A stretch of DNA of 38,145 nt from a virus, in the IMG/VR virus record IMGVR_UViG_3300047326_000087, positions 1-38,145 of that record; one strand, given 5' to 3'. Both the position numbers and the translations under genes were made by a program. This document shows, in pieces, positions 1 to 28,961 of the stretch. The notes below the pieces were generated by a model. It was not told the origin of the DNA. It made no database searches and saw only the letters and a list, made by a program, of their open reading frames with translations. The number at the start of each line of letters is the position of its first letter. Position 1 is the stretch's first letter.

Positions 1-3000
1 GCTGCGATAATCGGTAGTATCGAGGATCTGGTAATATCCATCGGTAAATGAGTGAGATAGGTTAGAGGTTAGAATTAGCTCGTTATTATTGGTTCCAATG
101 CTTTCGATTTGATACTGTCCTGACACATTAGATGGTGATGTAATGACGATATAGTCTCCGATGCTCGCATGCGAGAAGAAAGCTTTGGGATCACTAACCG
201 TGTTGCTACCAGCAATTCCTGAAAGAGTAGAGCCTGATAGTATCTGATATGAGTATCTAATTGCAGGAACCGTAATGCTATTCTCGGCTGTAGTGATTGG
301 GTATGCTTCCGCAATATAGAAGTATCCAAGATTCGTCATTGATGGATTTATGGGAGTGCAACAAACACTAACTGATGATATATGGGAGAACTTGATTGCC
401 GTATTCAGCGATTCGTTAGTTGTGAAATAGAGCGTTGTGGATACACTAATTCCGCCTGATATACCATTGATCGTGCAGGATACGGTATTTGCGTAGTTTA
501 TATTTGTTCCACCAATGTATACCGATAGGGTTCTACCATTATCTGATAGTGATGGCTGGTCAATGGTATATCCATCCATTGGATATCCATTATTTCCATA
601 CCCATCGTATACAAGATTACCATTGGCTGGGTTGTAAATGAGCTCGGTGGCTGATAGACAATAATGCGTAATCTCGGCATCGCATAACGATGCGGGAGAG
701 GGTAGATTTGTCATCAGTAGATTATTTGAACTGCCCCAGACATAGAATGACTGATTCACTCCACGATTATTGAGACCAAGTGTATTGATCAGCACAATAT
801 CATTCGGCGATGCACCATTTGTGAGGGTCAATATGTTGTTGCAATATCCGTCTTGACTAATTGAGTATGAAGGTTTTGTGGCATTAACCCCAGGTATCTC
901 CTCGGGACTATTTGCATACATAATGAAGGACACATTACTGGCAGAGATTGGTGAAGCTTGGTTTATAACCAACTCTGTAGCACTCATAACCTGCACTACA
1001 ATGAATAATCCATAACCATTAGGATTGTCGAGCGGGTCGGACATTTCAATGTCTGACAAATCGATCTGAATGAGCATTCCAGGAGTAATGCCATCAGAAA
1101 TGAAGTTGGATGATGAAGACGATACAACATCACTATTTTCGACGAGAACAAGGTCTGTTGCACTAAAAAGACTATGAATTAGCGAAATAGCTACATTTGG
1201 ATAGAGAGCAATATCTGTATGCACATCAAATGATGTCTGGTTGATTGAGAAGACGCCACCGGTCATTGTTATGGCAAGATTTTGATTGAGGACAAGAGAT
1301 TGCCCGTTGATTGCCACAATTGTGTATCCTAATGGAGAGAACCCTACGGAATCAATGAATATCGTATCACCAGGTGATATTGAGTAGGCACTAAAATTCA
1401 GAAACGATGAGACTATATTCGAGCCAGCTGTTGTAGTGAGATCATTTGATCCAACAATGCTTTTGTGAACCATTCCAACAATCTCTTCAGGATCTACCGT
1501 TCTGTATAGTTCAGACAAGTATGGGGTTGCGCTTCCGCCATACTTGATTATGTTTGGAACCTCAAACCCATCAATAAATAGATGTAGCTCATCTCTACGA
1601 CTTGCATTATTTATCTTCCAGGCAGTGGCTACTTGATGTAGTTCACCCGCTACCCACGAAGAAATATCTGCGCTCACCGAGCTTGCATTTCCAAATGAGT
1701 CTATGACTCTAAAATTCAGGTATCCGCTTTCATCCTTGTAGATTGAGAACCTATTCTTGGTGAACTTGCCAGCATCTACGAGATAGTGGTAGTTGTCAGC
1801 TACAAAAGTAATACCTTGTGCCACGGCTTGTCCAGATGCCGAAAATACAAGTGAATTAGTGCTCGATGTTATTGTTGAAGACGAGTTTGATGGAGCTGAT
1901 AGCGAGCGCGTGTTGGTATCGTAGAATTGCCCAGAAGTTTGCACATTAATGGTATAGTTCTTGGTAGTGTAGCCATCTGAATAACCATCCCAGTATCCAT
2001 CTTTTATGTCTATGAACCATCGATTGAATGTGCCACTCTGGTCTGCGGAGTAGTAGATAAATACCCCATCACGACTTTCATTTGGTTGACCCTGAACGGA
2101 TGCGAGGTTTTGTGTATTGAGAGTGAAGGTATTTGCTCCATAACCATAGTATGGATGATATCCGGCTGGACCAATAAAAATACTCTGAGGCGGGACAAGA
2201 TACCCATCTTTCATAACTGTGAAAGTTATATCTGATTGGTTGTCGATGCCATTCCATTGTGGATTTACCCAGAATTCGAGCGTTCCTTGTTCGAGACGAA
2301 GGTTCGATGACATAGGAAAGGATATCTTCTGACCTCGTGTATCTACAACAACTCCGTTGCCATATTTCGCTGGCACAAGATTGAATGTTCCCGTTGTTTT
2401 TATTGGCTCAGGATTGAGCAGAGAGTATCCAATTGTCCAGTTCTGAAACGCTGATTCAATGATATCAGGAGGAGTGTGCACGATAGTCTGAACGATATTA
2501 CGCATTGACGTCAGGGAGGGCCCAATTGGGAATGATTGCATTGCCGCCATTAGCGCATCACGATAGTTTTCCCGAGGAAGCGTTAGATCAAGGTTATTCA
2601 GTATTGGAATATTGATAAGAGTGCCAAAGTTTTTCAGCAAAGCATCTCGAAGCGCTCCTACCTTGTATGATACATAGTAGGTTTCTCCGGTATACAATGC
2701 GGATGATTGGCGGAAATCAAGCGCGTTATCACCATACTCGTAGCTAATCACAATCTCATCGGCAAGATATGTATAGTCGATGTAGTATCCGCCTTTATCA
2801 TAGTCTACAACAATTCGCGATATGTTGTTGATGGTGTATGTATAAATGACCGATACGGCATCCCCAAGATGGGGAGAAGCGTATCCATCAAGCACAAACT
2901 GCACTGGTGAACCAAGTATTACTGTCCCTTGATGAGAATTGCTCCATAATTGAGCTCCATCTGACAAACGCACAATAGATACGGTGAGTGTAATATTGGT

Positions 3001-5469
3001 AGATTGGTATAATAGATTTGAGTTAGCCGTGATATAGTATCCATCATTGCCGTGCGCTACCGTGTGATATTCGCTAAAAACTAATGGATTGACCGTAATT
3101 ATTGACCCATTTACTGAACAAGCGGAGGCAAAATTCACTGGCTGAGTATTATTGAGAAGATCCTGATACTCGTATAAACCACGAACATATTTGACCGGGT
3201 CGCTCACTCCGGCTGTAAAGTTATCCAATTCTCCAAATGTTCCTACCTGATTGTTGAGTATTTGATATGGGTAGTCCGCGTTATCATTTAGAAGCTCTTC
3301 GTTAGCCAAATCGAATGCACTCGGAAGAATTGAGTTGTAAGTAAACGATGTATATGGGAAGGTTTTGAGCTTTTGAGTTAGCGAAGAAAACTGATAGTAG
3401 ATATCTTGAACCGTGATGATATTATCGAACTGCGGAACAATATAACCAATTTTGTATGATATGGTTCCTATTGCTATACTCTGGGTTGAGGAAGTGAGCA
3501 GATAAACAACGCCATTAGTATAGTCTACTTGATAGTCCCCCACATTTATTAGTCGTGATTGATTATCAGATAGAGATAGGTTATTGTCGAAGTAGATTTC
3601 CTGAACAAAAACATATGGGTCTGAAAAAGATACGCTTGTGTTTATAGATGAACCTATGCAGTCTTGAGATGATCCGATGAGATTGTTATTATTGAGATCG
3701 ATAGTGAATATAACTGTTGATCCCGAAACTATTGAGGTGGTGTTGACAAACATAACCTCATTGAGGACATCGAGAAAATTCGCCCTCTCATAAGTTTGAG
3801 TCTGAATATTGGGAGCATTGACATATGTGAAGTAGATGGTGGTATCATTCCATCTTGAAACTCCATAGATTTCTCCTGTGGTTTGATTATAGATTCTGAA
3901 TACATCAGTAATAGGGAAGTTCTGGGGCTGAATTGCGTTCAATGCCACGAGATTGTTGTTAATGAATTCCTCCAATACCTCGACATGCGACGATACTTGG
4001 TAGTCTACACCTTGTGCTAAAACGGCTTCATATGAATATGAGACATTGGCGTCAGCTTCCGCGAGGCTGCCATTTGGCAAGTAAGCTATATCTTGCGTAT
4101 CGGTCTCATAGGTATAGTCGATTAGTGGAGAAAATACATATCGATAGGAATAGGTGGCAAGCGGAGGGTAAGCCCCCGTTCCGTCATTTGTAGATGCTCC
4201 GTAGACATATACGGTTCCACTTGCGTAATCTACCGAGTATTGTCCTGGAATAGATGGAAGATAGTTTAGAGTAAATGGAAGCTCATTGATGAAAGCTGGA
4301 TGAGGGGTATTTGATCCTGGATATGCATTAGGATCTATAAATACCACATCTCCTACTGATCCTGACTGATCAGAAACGGATACAATCGGAGCGTGGGCAA
4401 GATTGAAAACGGTCTCAAGAGGTGGGATTACTTCGCGTGATGATTGAAGGACTGTGTCGATTGATAATGTTGTAGGGTCAATATTTCTTCCGGTATCTTT
4501 ATATTGATAGGACACCTCGACATACATAATGCCCTCTATCGAGAAATTTGGATCTGATAGAATTGAGCTACTCAGGATAATCTGGTTGCTTGCCATCGAA
4601 AGATATGTAGAGGCGTAATCAGGATCATACTCTGATGTTAGTATCTGATACCCATATCCATCAATATCGTAAGTGTATGATGAACCATTGTAGACGAAGA
4701 CTACTCCATTGAGTATGATAACATTCTGATTGCTTAGATCGAGTGTGAGGGTTTCGACATTGAAAACTCCGGTGGCGTCTTTGGATGACGGAAGAAGGTT
4801 CTCACTAAACGGCGCGGCAAGCAGTGAAATTGGATAGGTAGGGAATGATGGAATATTAGTGAGGCTTGTGGAAGTAGTTCCAGTTGGTGTTGTTCCGACT
4901 CTTGTAATCTCATAGGCCGCCTCCTCATTGAGGCGATCGAAAGCCCCGCTGCCTCGCTGATGTTGTTCATCTACAATTGTGTAGGATAGATAGTTCTCGT
5001 TTTTGACTTGTCGAATGTCATATAGCCCTTGAGCAAGCACTGTAGATAGCGCATCGATATAGTTAGCCACATTGCTCGGAGCTTCGAGGTTGTAGAGATT
5101 ATTCTGTAGGAAGTTGTTTAGATAGGTTTTTATTGGGTTGTCTGTTCCAACCGGTCCAGTAATTAGAACCCTGTTAGTCACCCCATCATTGAGAATGAAA
5201 GCCGTGCCATTTAGCGACTGAAAAGGACTGCCGGTTATAGATTGGAAGGTAATAAAGTAGTCAGCCAGGGGCGTGAGTGGCTGAGTGGTAATATTTAGTG
5301 TTGTGCCGGATACACTAACCGTGAGAACCTCTGGGATTGGAACGCCAGGCGTTTGTGGACTAATGGTTATGTTTGCCGGAACAATCTCTTCGGTAAGAGT
5401 CGCCGTAAATGTAGCCGTAATATTCGTGGCATCTACGACTGTAACTTGTAGTATTCGAAGATTAGCCAC
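1..5469 (-). CDS. Giant baseplate wedge/fibre protein with LamG-like domain (3' end outside window)
   Basis: My own translation gives a frame open from a GTG at 5469 to base 1, 1823 codons with no stop, so the C-terminus is missing. The GTG lies 2 nt after the stop of the J-like gene, with AGGGA 11 nt upstream. Residues about 1-90 look like an Ig-like beta domain. Residues about 95-190 contain NENYLS and DEQHQRGSGAFDRL, a region I compare with gp7/gpI-type wedge proteins because it follows the J gene. The middle carries repeated VDY-x-x-G-x-x-Y hairpins. Residues about 1010-1310 resemble a LamG/concanavalin-like jelly roll (GTLEFWVNPQW, later ELHQVATAW and LHLFIDG), a fold that often binds sugars. 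The end holds small beta modules also found in sheath and J. Probable role: baseplate periphery or receptor contact. The gene is certain; the function is inferred. Confidence 0.85.
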   Translation of the reverse strand, partial: MANLRILQVTVVDATNITATFTATLTEEIVPANITISPQTPGVPIPEVLTVSVSGTTLNITTQPLTPLADYFITFQSITGSPFQSLNGTAFILNDGVTNRVLITGPVGTDNPIKTYLNNFLQNNLYNLEAPSNVANYIDALSTVLAQGLYDIRQVKNENYLSYTIVDEQHQRGSGAFDRLNEEAAYEITRVGTTPTGTTSTSLTNIPSFPTYPISLLAAPFSENLLPSSKDATGVFNVETLTLDLSNQNVIILNGVVFVYNGSSYTYDIDGYGYQILTSEYDPDYASTYLSMASNQIILSSSILSDPNFSIEGIMYVEVSYQYKDTGRNIDPTTLSIDTVLQSSREVIPPLETVFNLAHAPIVSVSDQSGSVGDVVFIDPNAYPGSNTPHPAFINELPFTLNYLPSIPGQYSVDYASGTVYVYGASTNDGTGAYPPLATYSYRYVFSPLIDYTYETDTQDIAYLPNGSLAEADANVSYSYEAVLAQGVDYQVSSHVEVLEEFINNNLVALNAIQPQNFPITDVFRIYNQTTGEIYGVSRWNDTTIYFTYVNAPNIQTQTYERANFLDVLNEVMFVNTTSIVSGSTVIFTIDLNNNNLIGSSQDCIGSSINTSVSFSDPYVFVQEIYFDNNLSLSDNQSRLINVGDYQVDYTNGVVYLLTSSTQSIAIGTISYKIGYIVPQFDNIITVQDIYYQFSSLTQKLKTFPYTSFTYNSILPSAFDLANEELLNDNADYPYQILNNQVGTFGELDNFTAGVSDPVKYVRGLYEYQDLLNNTQPVNFASACSVNGSIITVNPLVFSEYHTVAHGNDGYYITANSNLLYQSTNITLTVSIVRLSDGAQLWSNSHQGTVILGSPVQFVLDGYASPHLGDAVSVIYTYTINNISRIVVDYDKGGYYIDYTYLADEIVISYEYGDNALDFRQSSALYTGETYYVSYKVGALRDALLKNFGTLINIPILNNLDLTLPRENYRDALMAAMQSFPIGPSLTSMRNIVQTIVHTPPDIIESAFQNWTIGYSLLNPEPIKTTGTFNLVPAKYGNGVVVDTRGQKISFPMSSNLRLEQGTLEFWVNPQWNGIDNQSDITFTVMKDGYLVPPQSIFIGPAGYHPYYGYGANTFTLNTQNLASVQGQPNESRDGVFIYYSADQSGTFNRWFIDIKDGYWDGYSDGYTTKNYTINVQTSGQFYDTNTRSLSAPSNSSSTITSSTNSLVFSASGQAVAQGITFVADNYHYLVDAGKFTKNRFSIYKDESGYLNFRVIDSFGNASSVSADISSWVAGELHQVATAWKINNASRRDELHLFIDGFEVPNIIKYGGSATPYLSELYRTVDPEEIVGMVHKSIVGSNDLTTTAGSNIVSSFLNFSAYSISPGDTIFIDSVGFSPLGYTIVAINGQSLVLNQNLAITMTGGVFSINQTSFDVHTDIALYPNVAISLIHSLFSATDLVLVENSDVVSSSSSNFISDGITPGMLIQIDLSDIEMSDPLDNPNGYGLFIVVQVMSATELVINQASPISASNVSFIMYANSPEEIPGVNATKPSYSISQDGYCNNILTLTNGASPNDIVLINTLGLNNRGVNQSFYVWGSSNNLLMTNLPSPASLCDAEITHYCLSATELIYNPANGNLVYDGYGNNGYPMDGYTIDQPSLSDNGRTLSVYIGGTNINYANTVSCTINGISGGISVSTTLYFTTNESLNTAIKFSHISSVSVCCTPINPSMTNLGYFYIAEAYPITTAENSITVPAIRYSYQILSGSTLSGIAGSNTVSDPKAFFSHASIGDYIVITSPSNVSGQYQIESIGTNNNELILTSNLSHSFTDGYYQILDTTDYRS

Positions 5470-5471
5470 GA

Positions 5472-8400
5472 TTAGTCTGTTCCCTGATTTACAATGATTG
5501 TGTTAGCAACAAAGCTCTGATTTTGCTGAGCAGTAATGGTTAGTGCCATCCCGTTTGCACCATCAATATTGAAAGCCGTGAGAGTAGCGTTAGCAACCCC
5601 AGATACCGTCTGAGCAGCTGTCACGAGATCTGAAAAGCTGATTGTTCCTCCGAGAACATTTGAGTTGATGGCCGCCGTGACTGCACTTTGGACATTCTGA
5701 ATGATGGTTGTAGTTGCAATAGAAGTCGTGGTAGAGATTATTACGCTAACGGTTGCATCAATTAGTAGCTCCTTGCTTTCTTTGACCAAGACATCAGCTG
5801 TAATTGGTCGAGCGGCTTCGATATCAAAGGTAACATCTGATACAAGTGCATTGTAGTTAGATTGAATTACAATACGCTCATTCTCTTGAGGAGCTAAATA
5901 GTTGTAGTAGGAAATGTATCTGGAGCCGGTTGCAGGTTGTGTAAAATACGCAAGTGTAAATCGAACGGAGGAAGAAGCATTGAATCCGCTTGAGATGTAG
6001 ACTTGCTCAATGGTTGCAAACTTGTTGTTCGTATAGAGTGTTCCGTTCTTGGTGAAGTATAGACTCTCTGAATTATTGTCAGTTGCGTAGTAGAATGTGA
6101 TATTGAGTGTATCACCTATAACTGGAGCATTGGTAAGATTGTTAGTAGTAGATGGTAGTGTAAACTCAAAAGCAGATAGACTCTCGTTGTAGAGCATCTC
6201 ATTGGTGTAGAAGAGGTTATTGTTGATCTGCGTTCCCCCTACATCGTAATTAGTCAATACGGAAGTGATTTGGTTGCCCGTTGTGACTGATACATTTTGC
6301 ACCTGGACTACTCGAATTAGGTAGTTATTTGATGGAATAGAAGTGGCGGTTGAATTTAGGAAAGTTAGTATAGCTGGTAGAACATTCTGGGTGAGACCAT
6401 TGGTTATAGCTGTGAATACTACATTGGCGACTTTTGTTACGGTCGTTCCAAGAAGAGTAACAACGCCTGTGTTATTGATTTGGTCAGTTGTCGTCAGCGC
6501 TACTCGTGTGGGAGACTGGTGAAGATTCTTGTTCGTAAAACATAGAACGACGACCTTATCACCCTGAATTGCGTCGATTGAACTTGGTAGCGAGAGAATG
6601 TTGTTGACGGGATCTATTGAGTCAATTGTAGAACTCCAAAGATCATCATTACTCTCAATTCTAATGACTGCTATCTGATCCTGGTTTAGATTTGAAACAA
6701 CGGTTCCAATGGTGAGTGTATTGTTCGATGAGTTGTATCCAAGAATACTGAATGTGCCGATGTTATTAGGATTGTGAGATGAGGTGATTGAGATATTCTT
6801 GCCCAGGATATTATCTACAAGAGCGAAACTGAAATTATTGCTGGTGAATGTGCCGGAGAGCCTATTTGAACTCAATCCTGATAAATACCCATCAGAAGCA
6901 TAACCGTCAGAAAGTCCCGTGGTGGTATCGATAACCGAGAACGACAAGCCTGATTCGGCAGTAAGTGTCTGAATAGGTATGTAGAATTCGTTGGTTGAAT
7001 AGTTGAACTCGAGAGTTTGAAATGACCTGCTAAAGACACGATTGTTGAAAGTGAAAGGCTGAGTGTTGATCAAATCATCCGCGAAATATAGCACAAGAAC
7101 ATTATCTCCTACGGCAGGAGCATTGTAGCCCGAGAAAATTAGCTCGTAGTTTCCACTTACATTTGTGGTCAGCGTTCCTTGGTTTGATGAGTTCCAAATC
7201 TCCGCATATGTTCGTAGGTCAATAACTGATATGACTTGAGAAGCAGTCATTGTGAGACTTGATGAGGATATACTCAAAGAGATATATAGCTGGTCGGAAG
7301 TATTCTCCTGAATTGTTTGGGTCTCACGCCTAATGGTATTCGATGTAATAGCGTTGATTGATCCAATGCTACTGTTGGCATTGAAAGTATTACCGGAACG
7401 ACTTAGTGGGAAATTTGTTATGCCTGCGGTGAGAATGTTTTGAACGGCTGCTATATATGTGACATCGAGATAAATCTGCGATGGTGCTGGAGTAATATTT
7501 ACGGACGGGATTGTAATCTGGTTTGCCACAACGCTTCCGCTTGATCCAACTACATTGAAAGCATCTGACTGATTGTAGATGATATTGACTTCGTTTCCTA
7601 CCATTGCTGGAGAATCCGTGGGAAGAATGAGTGTCACATTATACTTCAGCGATTCTCCTACCACAATTGTAGTATTGAGAATGTCTCCATCATCCTCAGC
7701 CGTAAAGTAAAGTTCTTCATTGGTATTGATAAGTTTGACGCTCTCTATGCTGTTGATTGGGCTGTCGAGTGCCGAGAGCGTAATGGCAGTCCTACCAACG
7801 AAATTGACGACTTCGCTTGTGCTAACGACTCCATTTGTAGTGCTGAATATGTTAGCCTCAATTACCGATGATATCACATGCTTTGATGAGCCAACAAAGA
7901 GTGTGTTTGTCGAGTTCTGGCTAAATAGAATTCGTTCAGTCCTAATGGCGTTTGAAATTCCCCAGTCTACGCTGTCGTCGCTTGGTCGAGGATTATTGTC
8001 GAGGATTTTTCCGTCGTAATCAGAGAATGGGTCATAGCTGATAAGCCAAGTATAATCAACCTGAAGAATGTTGCTTGGGGAAGGAAGAGTATTACCGCTG
8101 ATTTGAATTTGACCCGTTGTGTTGATAGATCCTGTGCCATTGAGATTTTGATTGATGACCGTGTATCGTTCCCCAGTGTTGACATTGAACACGCGAGTCA
8201 CATTCGTAGCTGGTGTATGAAGAAGCTGAATGATCGATTGGTCGGTCGTAGAAATCTGGCTATTCTCATTGGTGATTGAGATATTTTGAGTTGCATTTGG
8301 AAGCTCAATGATATTCGAGAATGTAGTTGCGTCTTGTCCGTTGAACTGAGATTTGACCAGATTCTCATTGAATACAATCTGATTGCTGATCCAAGCGAAT

Positions 8401-23871: not shown

Positions 23872-24243
23872 TTATTCCGTTATCTTCCGTTTGCGTTTCT
23901 TCTTGCCAGTTCCGCCTTTTTCTTTGCGGGCCGCCTCTTCTCTGTTTTGCTTGTTGCTTTCTGCAATTCTTCTAATCAAATCATCTGCCTCTTCTTCTGT
24001 AGAGCTGCGTTGGTCTATCCCAACTCCAAGCATCTTTTTCACCGCTTCTGGGTTTATAAACGACCCTACAAGATAGCCTTGATTTTCGAGCAACTTATAC
24101 TCATCAGCGTAATCTTCTACCCAATTATGGAACATCCATGCTTTCATAATAGGATCCATTTCTTCTATCTCGGGGTCATCAGGGAGCTTCTGAAAGGTCT
24201 TACACAAGAACCATAGAAATCTATGGTCTGGCTCCTTGACTAT
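23872..24243 (-). CDS. Second chaperone ORF, made as a -1 frameshift extension (T-like)
   Basis: This frame is open from the end of the slippery run at 24243, without needing its own start. A -1 slip after residue 206 of the upstream gene continues as IVKEPDHRFLWFLCKTFQ and ends in a basic tail (GKKKRKRKITE). The fusion would be 206 + 123 = 329 aa. The only start-like codon near the front is TTG at 24207, 24 bases from the nearest SD-like AAGGAG (24232-24237), too far to work well. In lambda-like and many other tailed phages the two forms (G and GT) bind the tape measure and tube subunits during assembly. Composition is acidic in the middle and basic at the end. Confidence 0.8.
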   Translation of the reverse strand: MVKEPDHRFLWFLCKTFQKLPDDPEIEEMDPIMKAWMFHNWVEDYADEYKLLENQGYLVGSFINPEAVKKMLGVGIDQRSSTEEEADDLIRRIAESNKQNREEAARKEKGGTGKKKRKRKITE

Positions 24244-24270
24244 TTTTTTAGCTCGGCGGCGACCTCCTTT
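24209..24270 (-). promoter_or_regulatory. Programmed -1 ribosomal frameshift cassette
   Basis: Three elements are visible in the coding strand. First, a perfect SD-like AAAGGAGGT (24270-24262) inside the coding sequence. Second, 13 bases later, the heptamer A AAA AAA in the correct phase (24249-24243), immediately followed by TAG in frame 0. Third, a hairpin with arms GACCATAG (24228-24221) and CTATGGTT (24216-24209) and loop ATTT. The layout mirrors bacterial dnaX, where an internal SD upstream and a hairpin downstream stimulate slipping on A AAA AAG. The spacer to the hairpin, 14 nt, is longer than usual, so the SD may be the main stimulator. Confidence 0.85.
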
Positions 24271-24860
24271 GCTTGTTCGTTTGTGTTTATGCCGTATTTG
24301 CTTTGAGCTTCTGCTTTGAGTGCATTGAACTCATTGAATAGCTTGTTGACAACGATGTCTTCCAGATTTTCATCAATCCAAGAGAGCTTTCCATTGATAT
24401 CCTCAGTTCCAATGACATCTGATATTGGGTGTCCATCAATGTGAGAGATTGAGCGAGCAAGCTGCTGGCGACGGGCTTCGTAGGAAGCTTCGAGTTGAGT
24501 TTCTACCACCGAGAAAGTGGCGATAGAAGCCTCGCGAGCTTCGAAAGCTTTCAGGGTGCGGAGAGTGAAAGTATGGTCTCCGAGCTTAACATCACGAGTC
24601 ATTCGACCAATGTTGGCAAGGATTTCGATTCGTTTCTTGGCATCGGGATTGATACGCGGACCGTGAGCGATTTCTTGTGCTTTAGCGGCTCGTGCTTGGC
24701 GTATAGATGCCTCGATATCGGAAGGCGACTGTGGTGGCTGAGTCGGAGCTTGGGAAGCGGCGAATTGCTCTACTTCACCCTCTGGGGCTCCAACATTGAA
24801 TTCACGCATCTGAGGGTTTGGAACGGTCTTATTGAAGGAAGAGCTGGTAAAAGTAGCCAT
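24240..24860 (-). CDS. Tail assembly chaperone (G-like), 206 aa
   Basis: The supported start is ATG 24860, with AAGG ten bases upstream and a typical soluble N-terminus (MATFTSSSFNKTVPNPQMRE). The frame continues 53 codons further to 25019, but that part runs through non-coding palindromes and encodes a hydrophobic, implausible leader, so I reject it. The protein has a Pro/Gln/Ala-rich linker (about 30-60) and then a helical body (KKRIEILANIGRMTRD, EASYEARRQQLARSISHIDG). It ends AAELKK at a TAG directly after seven A residues in the coding strand. Position between tube and tape measure, together with the frameshift cassette, makes this the short chaperone form. It is the first gene after the terminator and IS gap. 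Confidence 0.85.
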   Translation of the reverse strand: MATFTSSSFNKTVPNPQMREFNVGAPEGEVEQFAASQAPTQPPQSPSDIEASIRQARAAKAQEIAHGPRINPDAKKRIEILANIGRMTRDVKLGDHTFTLRTLKAFEAREASIATFSVVETQLEASYEARRQQLARSISHIDGHPISDVIGTEDINGKLSWIDENLEDIVVNKLFNEFNALKAEAQSKYGINTNEQAKEVAAELKK

Positions 24861-24940
24861 AATTTGAGTGCCTTGTATAATGTTGGAATGGTCTTGCAAT
24901 AGAGATATAACGCGAGAGAAAAAGGAATGTCTTGCAATTG
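24861..24940 (-). promoter_or_regulatory. Candidate promoter/operator region with a direct repeat
   Basis: The leader of the chaperone gene holds two near-identical copies of ATTGCAAGACATTCC (24938-24924, and 24900-24885 with one extra C), 39 bases apart start to start. TTATAT lies between them, and TATACA lies 14 bases after the second TTGCAA. Spacings are not ideal for a sigma-70 promoter. A promoter here would make sense because a terminator-like hairpin ends the sheath/tube unit upstream. Confidence 0.25.
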
Positions 24941-24991
24941 GATGCGGAAATATGAGCAGATAGGGGTTAACAATGAGTAGCGAGTCAATTA

Positions 24992-25012
24992 CCACCAGCA
25001 CAAGGCTGGTGG
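24992..25012. repeat. Palindrome, left end of IS remnant
   Basis: Perfect 8-bp arms with the 5-base loop ACAAG. It matches the design and loop of the palindrome at 25366-25386. A TTAC tetranucleotide overlaps its left edge (24989-24992); the same word is the target of IS608, but this may be chance. Confidence 0.8.
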
Positions 25013-25094
25013 CTTGCATCTGAAGACTTCTCGATGCATTCGGCTAATTGACATATAGCCTGCTGTGCCTTCGGTTTGACCGCAGCACAGATGA

Positions 25095-25347
25095 GGTTAT
25101 TGCGAATATTCTTGGCAAACATATAACGAAAACCATTGCCAACACGAAATTGCCTACCATATTATATTCTGCACAAAATACCGACATAAGGTCATTGTGG
25201 ATGCGGTGGAAATAGAATTAAAGAAAATACTGGCAGAAAAAGTTCTGGGGAAGTGGTCTCTGGTCAAGAAGCACCTATTATGGTGCTGTAGGGCATGTCT
25301 CGGAAGATACTGTTAAGAAATATATTGAAGATCAACAATCACATTAA
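25095..25347 (+). pseudogene. tnpA: IS200/IS605 TnpA (Y1 HUH transposase) remnant, internally deleted and frameshifted
   Basis: Frame 1 from about 25122 reads YNENHCQHEIAYHIIFCTKY and then RHKVIVDAVEIELKKILAEK (to 25241), the N-terminal part of Y1 transposases (YHxxFxTKYR). A different frame from 25246 reads WGSGLWSRSTYYGAVGHVSE, then DTVKKYIEDQQSH and TAA at 25345-25347, the family C-terminus. The Tyr of YIEDQ (25321-25323) and its Gln (25333-25335) correspond to the catalytic Tyr and metal-ligand Gln of IS608 TnpA. The middle, including the HUH metal site, is gone (roughly 60 residues from family length about 130-155). A TGA at 25092-25094 sits upstream and no start codon follows it. Clearly non-functional. 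Confidence 0.85.
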
Positions 25348-25365
25348 TCTCGGTCGCCAATTCAT

Positions 25366-25386
25366 CCACCACGACAAGCGTGGTGG
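25366..25386. repeat. Palindrome, right end of IS remnant
   Basis: Perfect 8-bp arms CCACCACG and CGTGGTGG with loop ACAAG, 18 bases after the tnpA stop codon, followed on the plus strand by TTTT. It is the likely right-end hairpin of the element and could also act as a weak plus-strand terminator. Confidence 0.8.
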
Positions 25387-25403
25387 TTTTCTTGGCAAGA
25401 GAT

Positions 25404-25445
25404 CATAAAATCTGAAGAGACCCGGAAGAAAACCTCCGAGTCTCT
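25404..25445 (-). terminator. Probable intrinsic terminator or attenuator after the tail tube gene
   Basis: In the transcribed strand a 12-bp stem (arms AGAGACTCGGAG and TTCCGGGTCTCT with two G-U pairs, loop GTTTTC) spans 25445-25416. It is followed by TCAGATTTTAT, so the U run begins about five bases after the stem. This lies 44 bases after the tube stop codon and would separate the sheath/tube unit from the chaperone genes. The short, displaced U run makes full termination uncertain; a processing or stabilising hairpin is the alternative. Confidence 0.55.
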
Positions 25446-25489
25446 ATAGAAAACTTTCGCTAATAAGCAAGCCGAAAAAAAACGATGAA

Positions 25490-26116
25490 TTACTCGAAAA
25501 CTGCGTTGATTACACCAGGCGCTGTTAATGCGCCTCGATAGGCGCCTTGATCTGTAAGACTTTCCACCGAGTTCTGTTGAAGGCTGAATCCACGTGGACC
25601 TGAAGAAGCAGCACTTGCTCCACTTGTAAGTGTGCTGAAGATTGTCTCGGCTTCCCAGCTCATATCATCTACGATTGTATAGTTATCAGCCTTATATGAG
25701 TATCCTATTTGGCTGATCCACACATTTTGGATAGTTGTGATAACTGTATTAGCGTCATCTCCAGCTGTCTGATCAAGAATAACGATATCGAATGGAATAC
25801 GCTGAGACCCTGCGTGAAGGAAGTCGCGACTAAATGCTTCTGTAATAGTTAGAAGGTCGTATCTAATACGACTACAACTGCCAGTGACTTTAAGTGCACT
25901 AACTGGTGTGCTATCTATAAATCCATCGAACCCCAACTCAGCTATCATCTGAATTGGTCGGGCTTCAGTAATACTCAACGACTGTATAGCTCCAATAGGA
26001 GTTCCATTTACCTGAATGATGATATTCGTAGATAGAGAAGTTCCTGTCCTATCTACTGTATTACCAGCTGCATTGTTGATAATGCTACCTGTCTGTGATG
26101 TTAGTAATCCGGCCAT
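25490..26116 (-). CDS. Tail tube protein, 208 aa
   Basis: Size, position directly after the sheath gene, and sequence style fit contractile-tail tube proteins: a beta core with NIIIQVNGTPIGAIQSLSIT, then RPIQMIAELGFDGFIDSTP, a polar helix (LLTITEAFSRDFLHAGSQRI), and a late strand set (NVWISQIGYSYKADNYTIVD) ending before a flexible Ser/Ala-rich stretch. Tube subunits stack as hexameric rings inside the sheath. The ATG has GGAGA six bases upstream. A strong hairpin follows the gene, as expected for the end of a highly expressed sheath/tube unit. Confidence 0.85.
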   Translation of the reverse strand: MAGLLTSQTGSIINNAAGNTVDRTGTSLSTNIIIQVNGTPIGAIQSLSITEARPIQMIAELGFDGFIDSTPVSALKVTGSCSRIRYDLLTITEAFSRDFLHAGSQRIPFDIVILDQTAGDDANTVITTIQNVWISQIGYSYKADNYTIVDDMSWEAETIFSTLTSGASAASSGPRGFSLQQNSVESLTDQGAYRGALTAPGVINAVFE

Positions 26117-26156: not shown

Positions 26157-28961
26157 TTAGCTACCAATAACGCCAACACCCACATTTACAAGTATCCAGT
26201 TAATCGGGTAAACAGGTTGGACAGCTACGCTAATATCGTACTGTCTTGGATCAACCGCATCCTGCACAATGTTTAGGTTCGCGAAATTCGTTATCAGTCC
26301 TTGAGAGATAAAGCTCTTTAGCAATGCTAAGGCTTTGGCGCTCATATTGGTTATCACATTCGGATATCCAGGCTGCCCAATAAAGCCCGACAAGCCCGAT
26401 CTAAACGATTGAGCAATCGTGTCGCGAATGAACACGATCGAAATCTCTTGCTCCTCAGGAGCCCCGCTCTGAGTAGTTGTCAATCCCCACACCACAAGCC
26501 CACCACCGCTGACCGGCATTAGACTTGTCACGCCAGCAGCGGCCAAATTCTGATAAACGGTTGGGCTAAACTGACGAGTATTCAAGATTGAAAATCCACT
26601 CAAAACCTTGTTCGTTAGAGGCACCGCCACATTCGGCACGCCTGCTACATAACCAGCCGCAGCTGCTGCGATATAGAATCCGTCCAGTGTCTGATTATCA
26701 GATCCTACTTGAACCACAATCTGGTCAGGGAAGAAATAGACGCAGCGATATGTGTTTCCGTATGCATTTGCCACCGAGTAATTGAGCAGATCTTCCGTAT
26801 CTCCTGCCAAAACTTCGGCCGGAGTATTACCTTGAATACCTTCCAGGATTCCGAGGCTCTCTACCGCAGCCAATGATTGTCCCGTCAAGTTAGCCGGAGT
26901 TAGTCCATTGATCGCACCGATAAAAGCCACTCGCTCTTTACGATTTCTGATATCACTCATAGATATGCAGTGATTGACTGCATTCTCGAAAATGACCGAG
27001 ATTGTCTGTAGTGGTAGAGGCACGAGAATATTGAGGGTTTGTGTTTCAAGCACACTCAATACGGTTTCCCACCCGGCATCGAAGAAACTGGCATCTCCCT
27101 CGTCCACCACGGTTACTCGAAGGCTATTGCCCGTTGGAATAACATTGTGATTGACCACAAGATAGAAGCTTTCCATTGTGGGATCTTGCACTTCAAATTT
27201 CAGGTTATTATCACTTGTGAATGCTTTAGCAACCGTGATAGTATGACCAGAGACCGCTATAATGTCGAAAATGCCAAGATTGCTCGCATCAGCTGAACTC
27301 AAAATCTGTAGTTTGTAATTGTTAAGGACTGGGTTGAAGCTAGCAAAGTTGATGCTTGCACTGGAAAAGGGTCCAGTTGCTGTGTATGCCGTGCCTGTAA
27401 TAGTCCCGTCTGTCCCTGCCGTTCCTGCTACAAGCTCACCGAAAACCGAATCAATCAGTTGAAAGTGCACACTTGTATCAGTAATGAAGTCAGAGAATAG
27501 TATTGGACTGTTGCCAGGAGAAGGAGGAGCAACATAGTTTGGGTTGAGCGCGGTAATTTGAAGAACTCCACCCGTGACTCCAATTACCGGGAATGTTCCG
27601 ATATCCACATTATAGTCTGAATCGATAATCTGAACCTGTTTGCCAAGATAGTTGGAGTTGAAAGATCCAACACTTGCACTGCTAAAGTATCCATCGACCG
27701 ATGAGTTGAAAATTCGATCGATATAACCATCTTGTCCAAAGTTTATCGTCTCAATTTCCTGAACTACCGAGTATGAGAATGAGTTTCCGCTGGGAGCAAT
27801 AGCGTTATCAAACACGAATTCGCTAATCGTTGGCTTTCCCGCCGTTCCAAGAGTATAGAATGGGAAGAGATTTGGCAGGATTTGCGTTTCAACAAGCGTA
27901 TTTGGATTAGTGACGAAGAAGTGAATCGACTGGTTTGTGGCTGGCTGAACACCGAGCGCGAATGGAATCACGAAGTCATTGACATTGGTGCTCGTCGCTG
28001 GGAAATTCGAGACAAGCTCGTATGAGGTGCGTCGTGGAAGCGGAGGTGCTGCCTGAACCGCAAGCACACCTGGCGTATCGTTAGCGAAAGCGAGCTGCCC
28101 ACCGAGAGAGAGAACATTGGTGAGACTAACTGGACCAGAAATCGCAGTGAGAGCAGCCATATTCTGCACATATGTAGGGTTGTTGATATTGGCGACCGGA
28201 ATGAAAGTGGCCGTGAGACTATCACCCTTGCTGAGAACTCCGCTGTAAACTTCGATTGTGAAGTAATCTCCAGGATTGAAAACACTGGTCTCGAGAATAG
28301 AAAAGCTTAGAATAGAGTTTGATACAACGACATTGTTAGCGACCCAAACGACCGAGTTTCCATAACCATCGAGGAGATTACCGGAAACGGAACCGAATGC
28401 CGTAAAAGAAGCGGTCATTGCAATTGGCTGATTGATATTGTTTCGCTGAACCGAGACACACTTGATTGTCCAAGTTTCCTGTGGAGCGTTCACATCAACA
28501 AGCTGAAGATTTTGGATTGAACCTTTACCTATATTTGTGGCACCGGTCGTGTAGTATGACCCGCCTTGATTGATAATGTAGGCTGCCTGAAGCTCGATAT
28601 TGCCTGTGGTAGGGTCGAGGCAGTAGTCGTAGCTATTGCTGAAGACGCCACTGGAAGGGATTGCTTGTTCAAGTCCTACAAGAGTGACTCCGTTCTTGAA
28701 AAGCTGGGTTCTATTTGACACGAGGGGAGCTTGGGAGATATTGAAGAAGCGACCCACGGCTCCTGTGGTGCTGGTAAAGCTGGAATTCAATCCGTCCTGC
28801 CCACCTCCAAGCGCGGAGGCGACTATGGTTAGATTTGTAGAACCCTCGCCGATTATGCACGGAATAAGGACTCCACCAGGAACGCTTGCGCCCGTGCTTT
28901 GAGTCTGGACATTAGTGTAAACTCCGGGTGTTGCGTTATTTATGCCTTCAATGTTGCTCAT
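26157..28961 (-). CDS. Tail sheath protein with inserted beta modules, 934 aa
   Basis: The N-terminus (TPGVYTNVQTQ) and the long C-terminal part (about 665-934: NRKERVAFIGAINGL, LAGDTEDLL, YIAAAAAGYVAG, TNKVLSGF, GVTSLMPVSGGGLVVWGLTT, IVFIRDTIAQSFRSGLSGFI, ending with DPRQYDISVAVQPVYPINWI) are typical of contractile sheath subunits. Common sheaths are about 400-700 aa. The extra length lies mainly at residues 100-640 and includes two copies of a small beta module (420-471 and 528-581), probably domains displayed on the outside of the tail. The ATG has GAGGA eight bases upstream. The 80-base gap before the gene shows no clear promoter. Confidence 0.92.
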   Translation of the reverse strand: MSNIEGINNATPGVYTNVQTQSTGASVPGGVLIPCIIGEGSTNLTIVASALGGGQDGLNSSFTSTTGAVGRFFNISQAPLVSNRTQLFKNGVTLVGLEQAIPSSGVFSNSYDYCLDPTTGNIELQAAYIINQGGSYYTTGATNIGKGSIQNLQLVDVNAPQETWTIKCVSVQRNNINQPIAMTASFTAFGSVSGNLLDGYGNSVVWVANNVVVSNSILSFSILETSVFNPGDYFTIEVYSGVLSKGDSLTATFIPVANINNPTYVQNMAALTAISGPVSLTNVLSLGGQLAFANDTPGVLAVQAAPPLPRRTSYELVSNFPATSTNVNDFVIPFALGVQPATNQSIHFFVTNPNTLVETQILPNLFPFYTLGTAGKPTISEFVFDNAIAPSGNSFSYSVVQEIETINFGQDGYIDRIFNSSVDGYFSSASVGSFNSNYLGKQVQIIDSDYNVDIGTFPVIGVTGGVLQITALNPNYVAPPSPGNSPILFSDFITDTSVHFQLIDSVFGELVAGTAGTDGTITGTAYTATGPFSSASINFASFNPVLNNYKLQILSSADASNLGIFDIIAVSGHTITVAKAFTSDNNLKFEVQDPTMESFYLVVNHNVIPTGNSLRVTVVDEGDASFFDAGWETVLSVLETQTLNILVPLPLQTISVIFENAVNHCISMSDIRNRKERVAFIGAINGLTPANLTGQSLAAVESLGILEGIQGNTPAEVLAGDTEDLLNYSVANAYGNTYRCVYFFPDQIVVQVGSDNQTLDGFYIAAAAAGYVAGVPNVAVPLTNKVLSGFSILNTRQFSPTVYQNLAAAGVTSLMPVSGGGLVVWGLTTTQSGAPEEQEISIVFIRDTIAQSFRSGLSGFIGQPGYPNVITNMSAKALALLKSFISQGLITNFANLNIVQDAVDPRQYDISVAVQPVYPINWILVNVGVGVIGS
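27219..27704 (-). repeat. Two copies of a small beta module inside the sheath gene
   Basis: Residues 420-471 (GYFSSASVGSFNSNYLGKQV, IIDSDYNVDIGTFPVIGV) and 528-581 (GPFSSASINFASFNPVLNNY, ILSSADASNLGIFDIIAV) share the pattern PFSSAS-x-x-F ... L-x-x-Y/G-K-x-x-I ... N/D-x-G-x-F-x-I-x-x-V-x-G ... I-T. A third relative is in the J-like protein (6705-6896). Similarity is at protein level only. Confidence 0.6.

Follow-up and report, generated by a model that had tools for sequence, protein, structure and literature searches.

Organization of the tail gene locus

The window, meaning the whole 38,145-nt stretch of viral DNA analysed here, carries on its minus strand two overlapping open-reading frames between the presumed genes for the tail tube and the tape measure protein, both of which were assigned mostly by synteny. 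The genes of the locus and the features at the junction of the two frames are:

26157 to 28961, minus strand: tail sheath gene, 934 aa (phrog_2839, tail sheath, E 1.8e-13)
25490 to 26116, minus strand: presumed tail tube gene, 208 aa (weak tube and virion matches; relative of phage G gp180)
24240 to 24860, minus strand: upstream tail assembly chaperone ORF, 206 aa, resembling the short lambda gpG product (homology and an AlphaFold model)
24243 to 24249, minus strand: slippery heptamer A AAA AAA (present in the window and in 67 of 68 distinct relatives)
24240 to 24242, minus strand: 0-frame stop TAG, abutting the 3′ end of the heptamer (window sequence and stop position in relatives)
23872 to 24243, minus strand: -1 frame extension, 123 aa, ending in TAA; C-terminal domain of the predicted, lambda GT-like fusion of 329 aa
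21789 to 23864, minus strand: presumed tape measure gene, 691 aa, directly downstream (position and synteny in relatives; no informative family match)

The upstream frame starts with ATG at 24860, runs for 206 codons and ends GAG CTA AAA AAA TAG, placing the seven As at 24249-24243 in X XXY YYZ phase with TAG next, as had been recognized in a sequence-only reading of this DNA. The -1 frame begins ATA GTC AAG GAG CCA and stays open to a TAA at 23874-23872, and the fusion of 206 + 123 = 329 aa proposed in that reading was recovered in the same frame and at the same length. Its further claim, that the downstream ORF lacks a good start of its own, also held: the -1 frame of the window offers a TTG at codon 13 and an ATG at codon 29, both within the conserved domain and neither with a good Shine-Dalgarno (SD) sequence, and the extension is conserved from its first residues, IVxEPDHRFLWFLCK, with helix 5-17 preceding any ATG. 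The coding strand of the 38 kb contains a single A7 run and a single AAAGGAGGT, the SD-like element discussed below. The pattern GGAGG-N-A7-TAG matched once in the window and in none of 100 shuffles, and its chance occurrence there is negligible. A search of the window against Rfam produced no match.

By profile and structure comparisons, each half of the predicted fusion is homologous to tail assembly chaperones. The upstream family has a few members that match tail assembly chaperone PHROGs, and it aligns with gp181 of Bacillus phage G (hhalign E 1e-9). The AlphaFold model of the upstream protein (mean pLDDT 82.8) has the HK97 tail assembly chaperone 2ob9 as its top PDB match, a weak one (E 0.08), while in BFVD phage G gp181 and gp182 are found near the top (E 3e-7 and 5e-6). 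The downstream family matches phrog_25000 and phrog_4988 (tail assembly chaperone), plus phrog_1316, and aligns with phage G gp182 (hhalign E 3e-7). Searching GenBank phages by sequence gave no direct relative of the upstream protein and one marginal relative of the downstream part, and an alignment-based search of bacterial genomes confirmed no relative.

Of 38 chaperone C-terminal domains, 17 are matched by phrog_1316, a family that goes under the name "RNA polymerase beta subunit". A likely member in Aerococcus phage AVP_84 (L124, positions 6040-6567) is flanked on one side by a tail assembly chaperone and on the other by the next large tail gene, and the name of the family is probably wrong. 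The match in AVP_84 begins upstream of the annotated start, so this phage may also frameshift, with an apparent +1 relation.

Conservation of the slip site in relatives

Relatives were collected by scanning IMG/VR with the downstream protein as the query, so that the slip site was not selected for. The scan returned 80 loci, from which 68 distinct junctions were read; 60 representatives sharing less than 85% nucleotide identity over 135 nt were used in the tests for nucleotide selection. The contigs reach 447 kb, and some exceed 350 kb. Exactly seven As, never a longer run, stand in A AAA AAA phase in 67 of the 68 distinct relatives, each reading NTA AAA AAA followed by a stop, and in each the conserved C-terminal domain is encoded in the -1 frame. 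Among the representatives, TAA or TAG follows the run immediately in 52 of 60 and TAA follows one codon later in the other 8. The base preceding AAA AAA is an A in 60 of 60, compared to 45% expected, and is supplied by CTA, TTA, ATA and GTA codons for Leu, Ile and Val; both Lys codons are AAA in all 60. The first ATG of the -1 frame falls between codons 13 and 37 depending on the relative, usually at codon 29 and inside the conserved domain, and the residues that precede it are among the most conserved.

The lone exception among the 68 (L006/L107, on one contig) has a different frame relation and counts against a frameshift reading. At positions 3690-3720 of L006 the sequence is CTG AAC AAA AGT AGT TAA with the downstream frame at +1 (or -2), the domain resumes as VVKDPDHRF and the SD AAAGGAGG is retained; a genuine +1 site would explain this, and so would an assembly error of one base.

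A Shine-Dalgarno element upstream of the run

The perfect SD described earlier at 13 bases upstream of the run was found at 24270-24262:

24262 to 24270, minus strand: SD-like stimulator AAAGGAGGT, with its GGAGG core 13 nt before A7 (conservation and synonymous shuffles)

There are 12 nt between the final T of the element and the run. GGAGG or GAGG is present at the identical spacing in 39 of the 60 representatives. For the Glu codon within the SD, 44 of 50 sequences use GAG, while at the Glu three codons further on 41 of 45 use GAA, against a background of 26% GAG, a contrast for which Fisher's test gives 8e-16, a p-value that is too small because the representatives were treated as independent. 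Made inside the same sequences, this contrast is the safest form of the selection argument. The best pairing with the 16S tail (anti-SD) averages -8.1 kcal/mol over the 60 representatives compared to -4.9 in synonymous shuffles (z -9), and the SD element is selected as nucleotides. It is absent or displaced in about a fifth of relatives, which counts against the frameshift reading: L058 and its kin have the SD shifted about 6 nt upstream, and among the 60 representatives no SD was seen in L056, L066, L113 and a few others. A trade-off of SD strength against downstream folding was considered and rejected (Spearman -0.07, p 0.58).

RNA structure downstream of the run

Three overlapping elements lie 3′ of the heptamer:

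24229 to 24236, minus strand: 5′ arm of the conserved stem, AGGAGCCA, 6 nt past the heptamer (stem enumeration)
24206 to 24213, minus strand: 3′ arm of the window stem, TGGTTCTT, at the class B partner site and weak in the window
24211 to 24226, minus strand: hairpin CCATAG-ATTT-CTATGG drawn in the sequence-only reading, overlapping and competing with the conserved stem

In a localisation test that is independent of any chosen structure, codons 2-32 of the -1 frame folded at -20.6 kcal/mol compared to -14.9 kcal/mol in synonymous shuffles, a gain of 5.7 (z of mean -13.6). No folding excess was found further downstream; one segment upstream gave z -4.1 and the segment holding the SD gave z -5.1. 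Stem enumeration over the 60 representatives gave a mean of -15.9 compared to -9.5 in shuffles. The 5′ arm is typically GGA(A/G)CC(A/G/T)G and in relatives usually starts 6-8 nt after A7. Its partners are AGGTTCC in the HRFL codons (class A), CTGGTTC in the WF codons (class B) and CCGGTTC in the DPVQ codons, about 70 nt further on (class C). With thresholds and classes that were defined after inspecting folds, a stem of at least seven strong pairs is present at one of the three sites in 50 of 60 representatives compared to 14.8 in shuffles (maximum 24 in 100 shuffles), and the class C stem in 30 of 60 compared to 1.0. The Pro codon in the 5′ arm tracks the class, being CCG in 23 of 23 sequences with class C only, CCA in 14 of 15 with class B only and CCT in 3 of 3 with class A only, where the background for CCG is 9%. 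The class B stem is 85% paired compared to 39-52% when the partner is slid, and over the classes as a whole sliding the partner leaves at most 58% of the cells paired, down from 85-87%. Within classes B and C, pair changes were not above the shuffle control, which counts against the frameshift reading; the stems of one class show very little variation, and this accounts for the lack of a covariation excess. A consensus hairpin common to all relatives was rejected, since there are three main partner sites plus singletons.

The hairpin that had been drawn downstream of the run does exist at 24226-24211, but it is not the conserved element. In the window alone it is unremarkable (z about -1.4, range -1.0 to -1.6), and its six pairs are intact in just 8 of 60 relatives. 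Conservation in related phages, which the same reading had named as a check for all three elements, extends to the A7 run and, in 39 of 60, to the SD at its fixed spacing, but not to this hairpin. In the window, the conserved downstream stem is more likely formed by AGGAGCCA paired with TGGTTCTT, a structure that shares bases with the drawn hairpin and would compete with it. This class B stem contains two G-U pairs and, at -11.7 compared to -11.3 expected from its own synonymous shuffles, is no stronger than they are, a further point against the frameshift reading. The class B stem of the nearest relative, L044, formed by AGGAGCCA and TGGTTCCT, is stronger (-15.1; local fold z -4.1).

On a tree of the fused protein the stem classes are clustered and do not form single clades, and the clade of eight that contains the window has three class A and three class B stems; overlapping labels (B, BC and so on) are scored as separate states, so counts of class changes are upper estimates. 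On balance we favor a history in which the heptamer, usually the SD, and the 5′ arm stayed fixed while the 3′ arm shifted on several occasions between coding sites, of which there are at least three (in the HRFL, WF and DPVQ codons), each kept by synonymous codon choice. If true, the stimulatory RNA has been rebuilt repeatedly around a constant start point.

Proposed mechanism and alternative explanations

These features very probably constitute a programmed -1 ribosomal frameshift through which one mRNA yields a tail assembly chaperone in two forms, and the best reading of the sequences appears to be an SD- and stem-stimulated signal that is unusually well conserved, in which mechanism and gene are each known. 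Most ribosomes would terminate at TAG and release the 206-aa protein, while in a minority the two Lys-tRNAs on A AAA AAA would slip back by one base to give the 329-aa fusion. Pairing of GGAGG with the 16S rRNA tail, together with the stem starting 6-8 nt downstream, may keep the ribosome over the slippery run and increase how often it slips. What the sequences themselves show is the frame relation, the homology, the conservation, and selection at the nucleotide level on the slip site, the SD and the region of the downstream stem; we infer from them that slippage takes place, at what rate, and what both proteins do. If the two proteins act as those of lambda G/GT, the N-terminal part would form a coat on the tape measure protein and the C-terminal extension would bring in subunits of the tail tube. 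The earlier proposal, that a -1 shift joins the chaperone ORFs with the SD placed as in dnaX and not as in lambda, is strongly supported by the 67 of 68 distinct relatives; the placement is also that of IS911. Published ranges for stimulation are 6-17 nt for the SD and 5-8 nt for the 3′ structure (PMC4066793), and the SD of the window and the usual stem start of its relatives fall within them. In E. coli, A AAA AAA is reported to slip less readily than A AAA AAG (PMC5009743), which counts against the frameshift reading.

In one alternative A7 alone matters, and the SD and the stem merely follow from the conserved protein sequence (KEV, EPDHRF and DPVQ). It draws on the relatives that are missing the SD and on the weakness of the window's own stem, but synonymous shuffles preserve the protein and lose both signals, and the match between Pro codon and stem class also counts against it, so that we consider it unlikely. 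Less probable still is transcriptional slippage on A7, in which some mRNAs would gain an extra A and ordinary translation would yield the fusion. In its favor, a homopolymer run is present. Transcriptional slippage usually requires longer runs, though, and here the run is seven and never longer in 67 of 68 relatives with its codon phase held, while an SD and a stem at ribosomal distances would be left without a role. On the other side, A7 is under-represented in E. coli genes, in part as it may permit slippage (PMC4066793).

Separate translation of the downstream ORF by reinitiation or an internal start, with no fusion made, could use the TTG and ATG codons of the -1 frame, and GGAGG could in principle hold terminating ribosomes. 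We regard this as highly improbable: the first ATG lies inside the conserved domain, behind the highly conserved IVxEPDHRFLWFLCK, the window has no start codon 5-10 nt past GGAGG, and conservation of A7 would be needless. A metagenome contig with a homopolymer also invites suspicion of a sequencing or assembly indel, or of a decayed gene, yet 67 distinct sequences, drawn from many metagenomes, have this frame relation at the same site, and the cultured isolate phage G has an equivalent A AAA AAC TAG site. An indel or decay is scarcely credible for the window, and for the family it is already refuted.

Comparison with known systems

The programmed -1 frameshift proposed here has its closest counterpart in Bacillus phage G (NC_023719), which has the same gene order of sheath, tube, chaperone pair and tape measure, and in which both gp181 and gp182 are homologous to the halves found here, with a -1 frame, a heptamer directly before TAG and AAAGGA 12 nt upstream; gp182 is annotated as a joined CDS (tail assembly chaperone). 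The phage G heptamer is A AAA AAC, in contrast to A AAA AAA in the window family, with no clear GGAGG, and downstream there is only a short five-pair hairpin (z -0.3). In Mycobacterium phage Myrna, whose sheath is a distant relative of the window sheath, gp126/127 likewise has a joined annotation as tail assembly chaperone and immediately precedes the tape measure gene, but Myrna has no A7 run and its candidate site, G GGA AAA, lies several codons before the stop.

A general -1 frameshift in the tail genes of dsDNA phages was reportedly described by Xu, Hendrix and Duda in 2004. The lambda G/GT slip site is G GGA AAG, unlike the window family with its invariant A AAA AAA, usual SD and downstream stem. 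The arrangement is otherwise like that summarised in PMC5009743 for lambda gpG/gpGT and dsDNA phage tail genes: a pair of overlapping ORFs precedes the tape measure gene, and ribosomes enter the second by slipping into the -1 frame. The presumed role is the same. The E. coli dnaX and IS911 cassettes combine an A-rich heptamer, an upstream SD and a downstream stem at distances similar to those found here (PMC3711429, PMC4066793). The genes are unrelated, the dnaX heptamer is A AAA AAG (PMC5009743) compared to A AAA AAA in all 67, and the stems of the window family, unlike those of dnaX and IS911, have 3′ arms that vary from lineage to lineage. The window cassette would work like dnaX, with a motif that is not the same.

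Gene and mechanism are known separately, and phage G is already annotated as frameshifted. A chaperone cassette with an invariant A7, a mostly fixed SD and a re-sited 3′ arm appears to be undescribed in the open-access papers searched, none of which reports it for this phage group. Tail chaperone frameshifts are widespread and the signals that set their rates are poorly defined in most phages. The 60 diverged sequences amount to a natural mutagenesis of the complete cassette (SD, heptamer, stop and stem), and the contribution of each part is therefore predictable and testable in one reporter series. Annotators could join chaperone genes in large uncultured phages.

Other features of the window

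The gap between the tube and chaperone genes (24861-25489, 630 nt) holds a broken IS200/IS605-like transposase on the plus strand, two pieces of which match Y1_Tnp positions 2-35 and 88-121 (E 2e-7 and 1e-6) in different frames. It also contains two hairpins, a G+C-rich one at 25366-25386 and a second near 25000-25017; the same gap in L002 is about 140 nt. Recoded stop codons were considered for the ORF-poor first 5 kb and rejected, since this region is one open-ended ORF under table 11 and recoding is not needed. On the minus strand of positions 1-5502, this single frame is open for 1834 codons and runs off the window edge, and its appearance suggests a portion of a very large structural protein.
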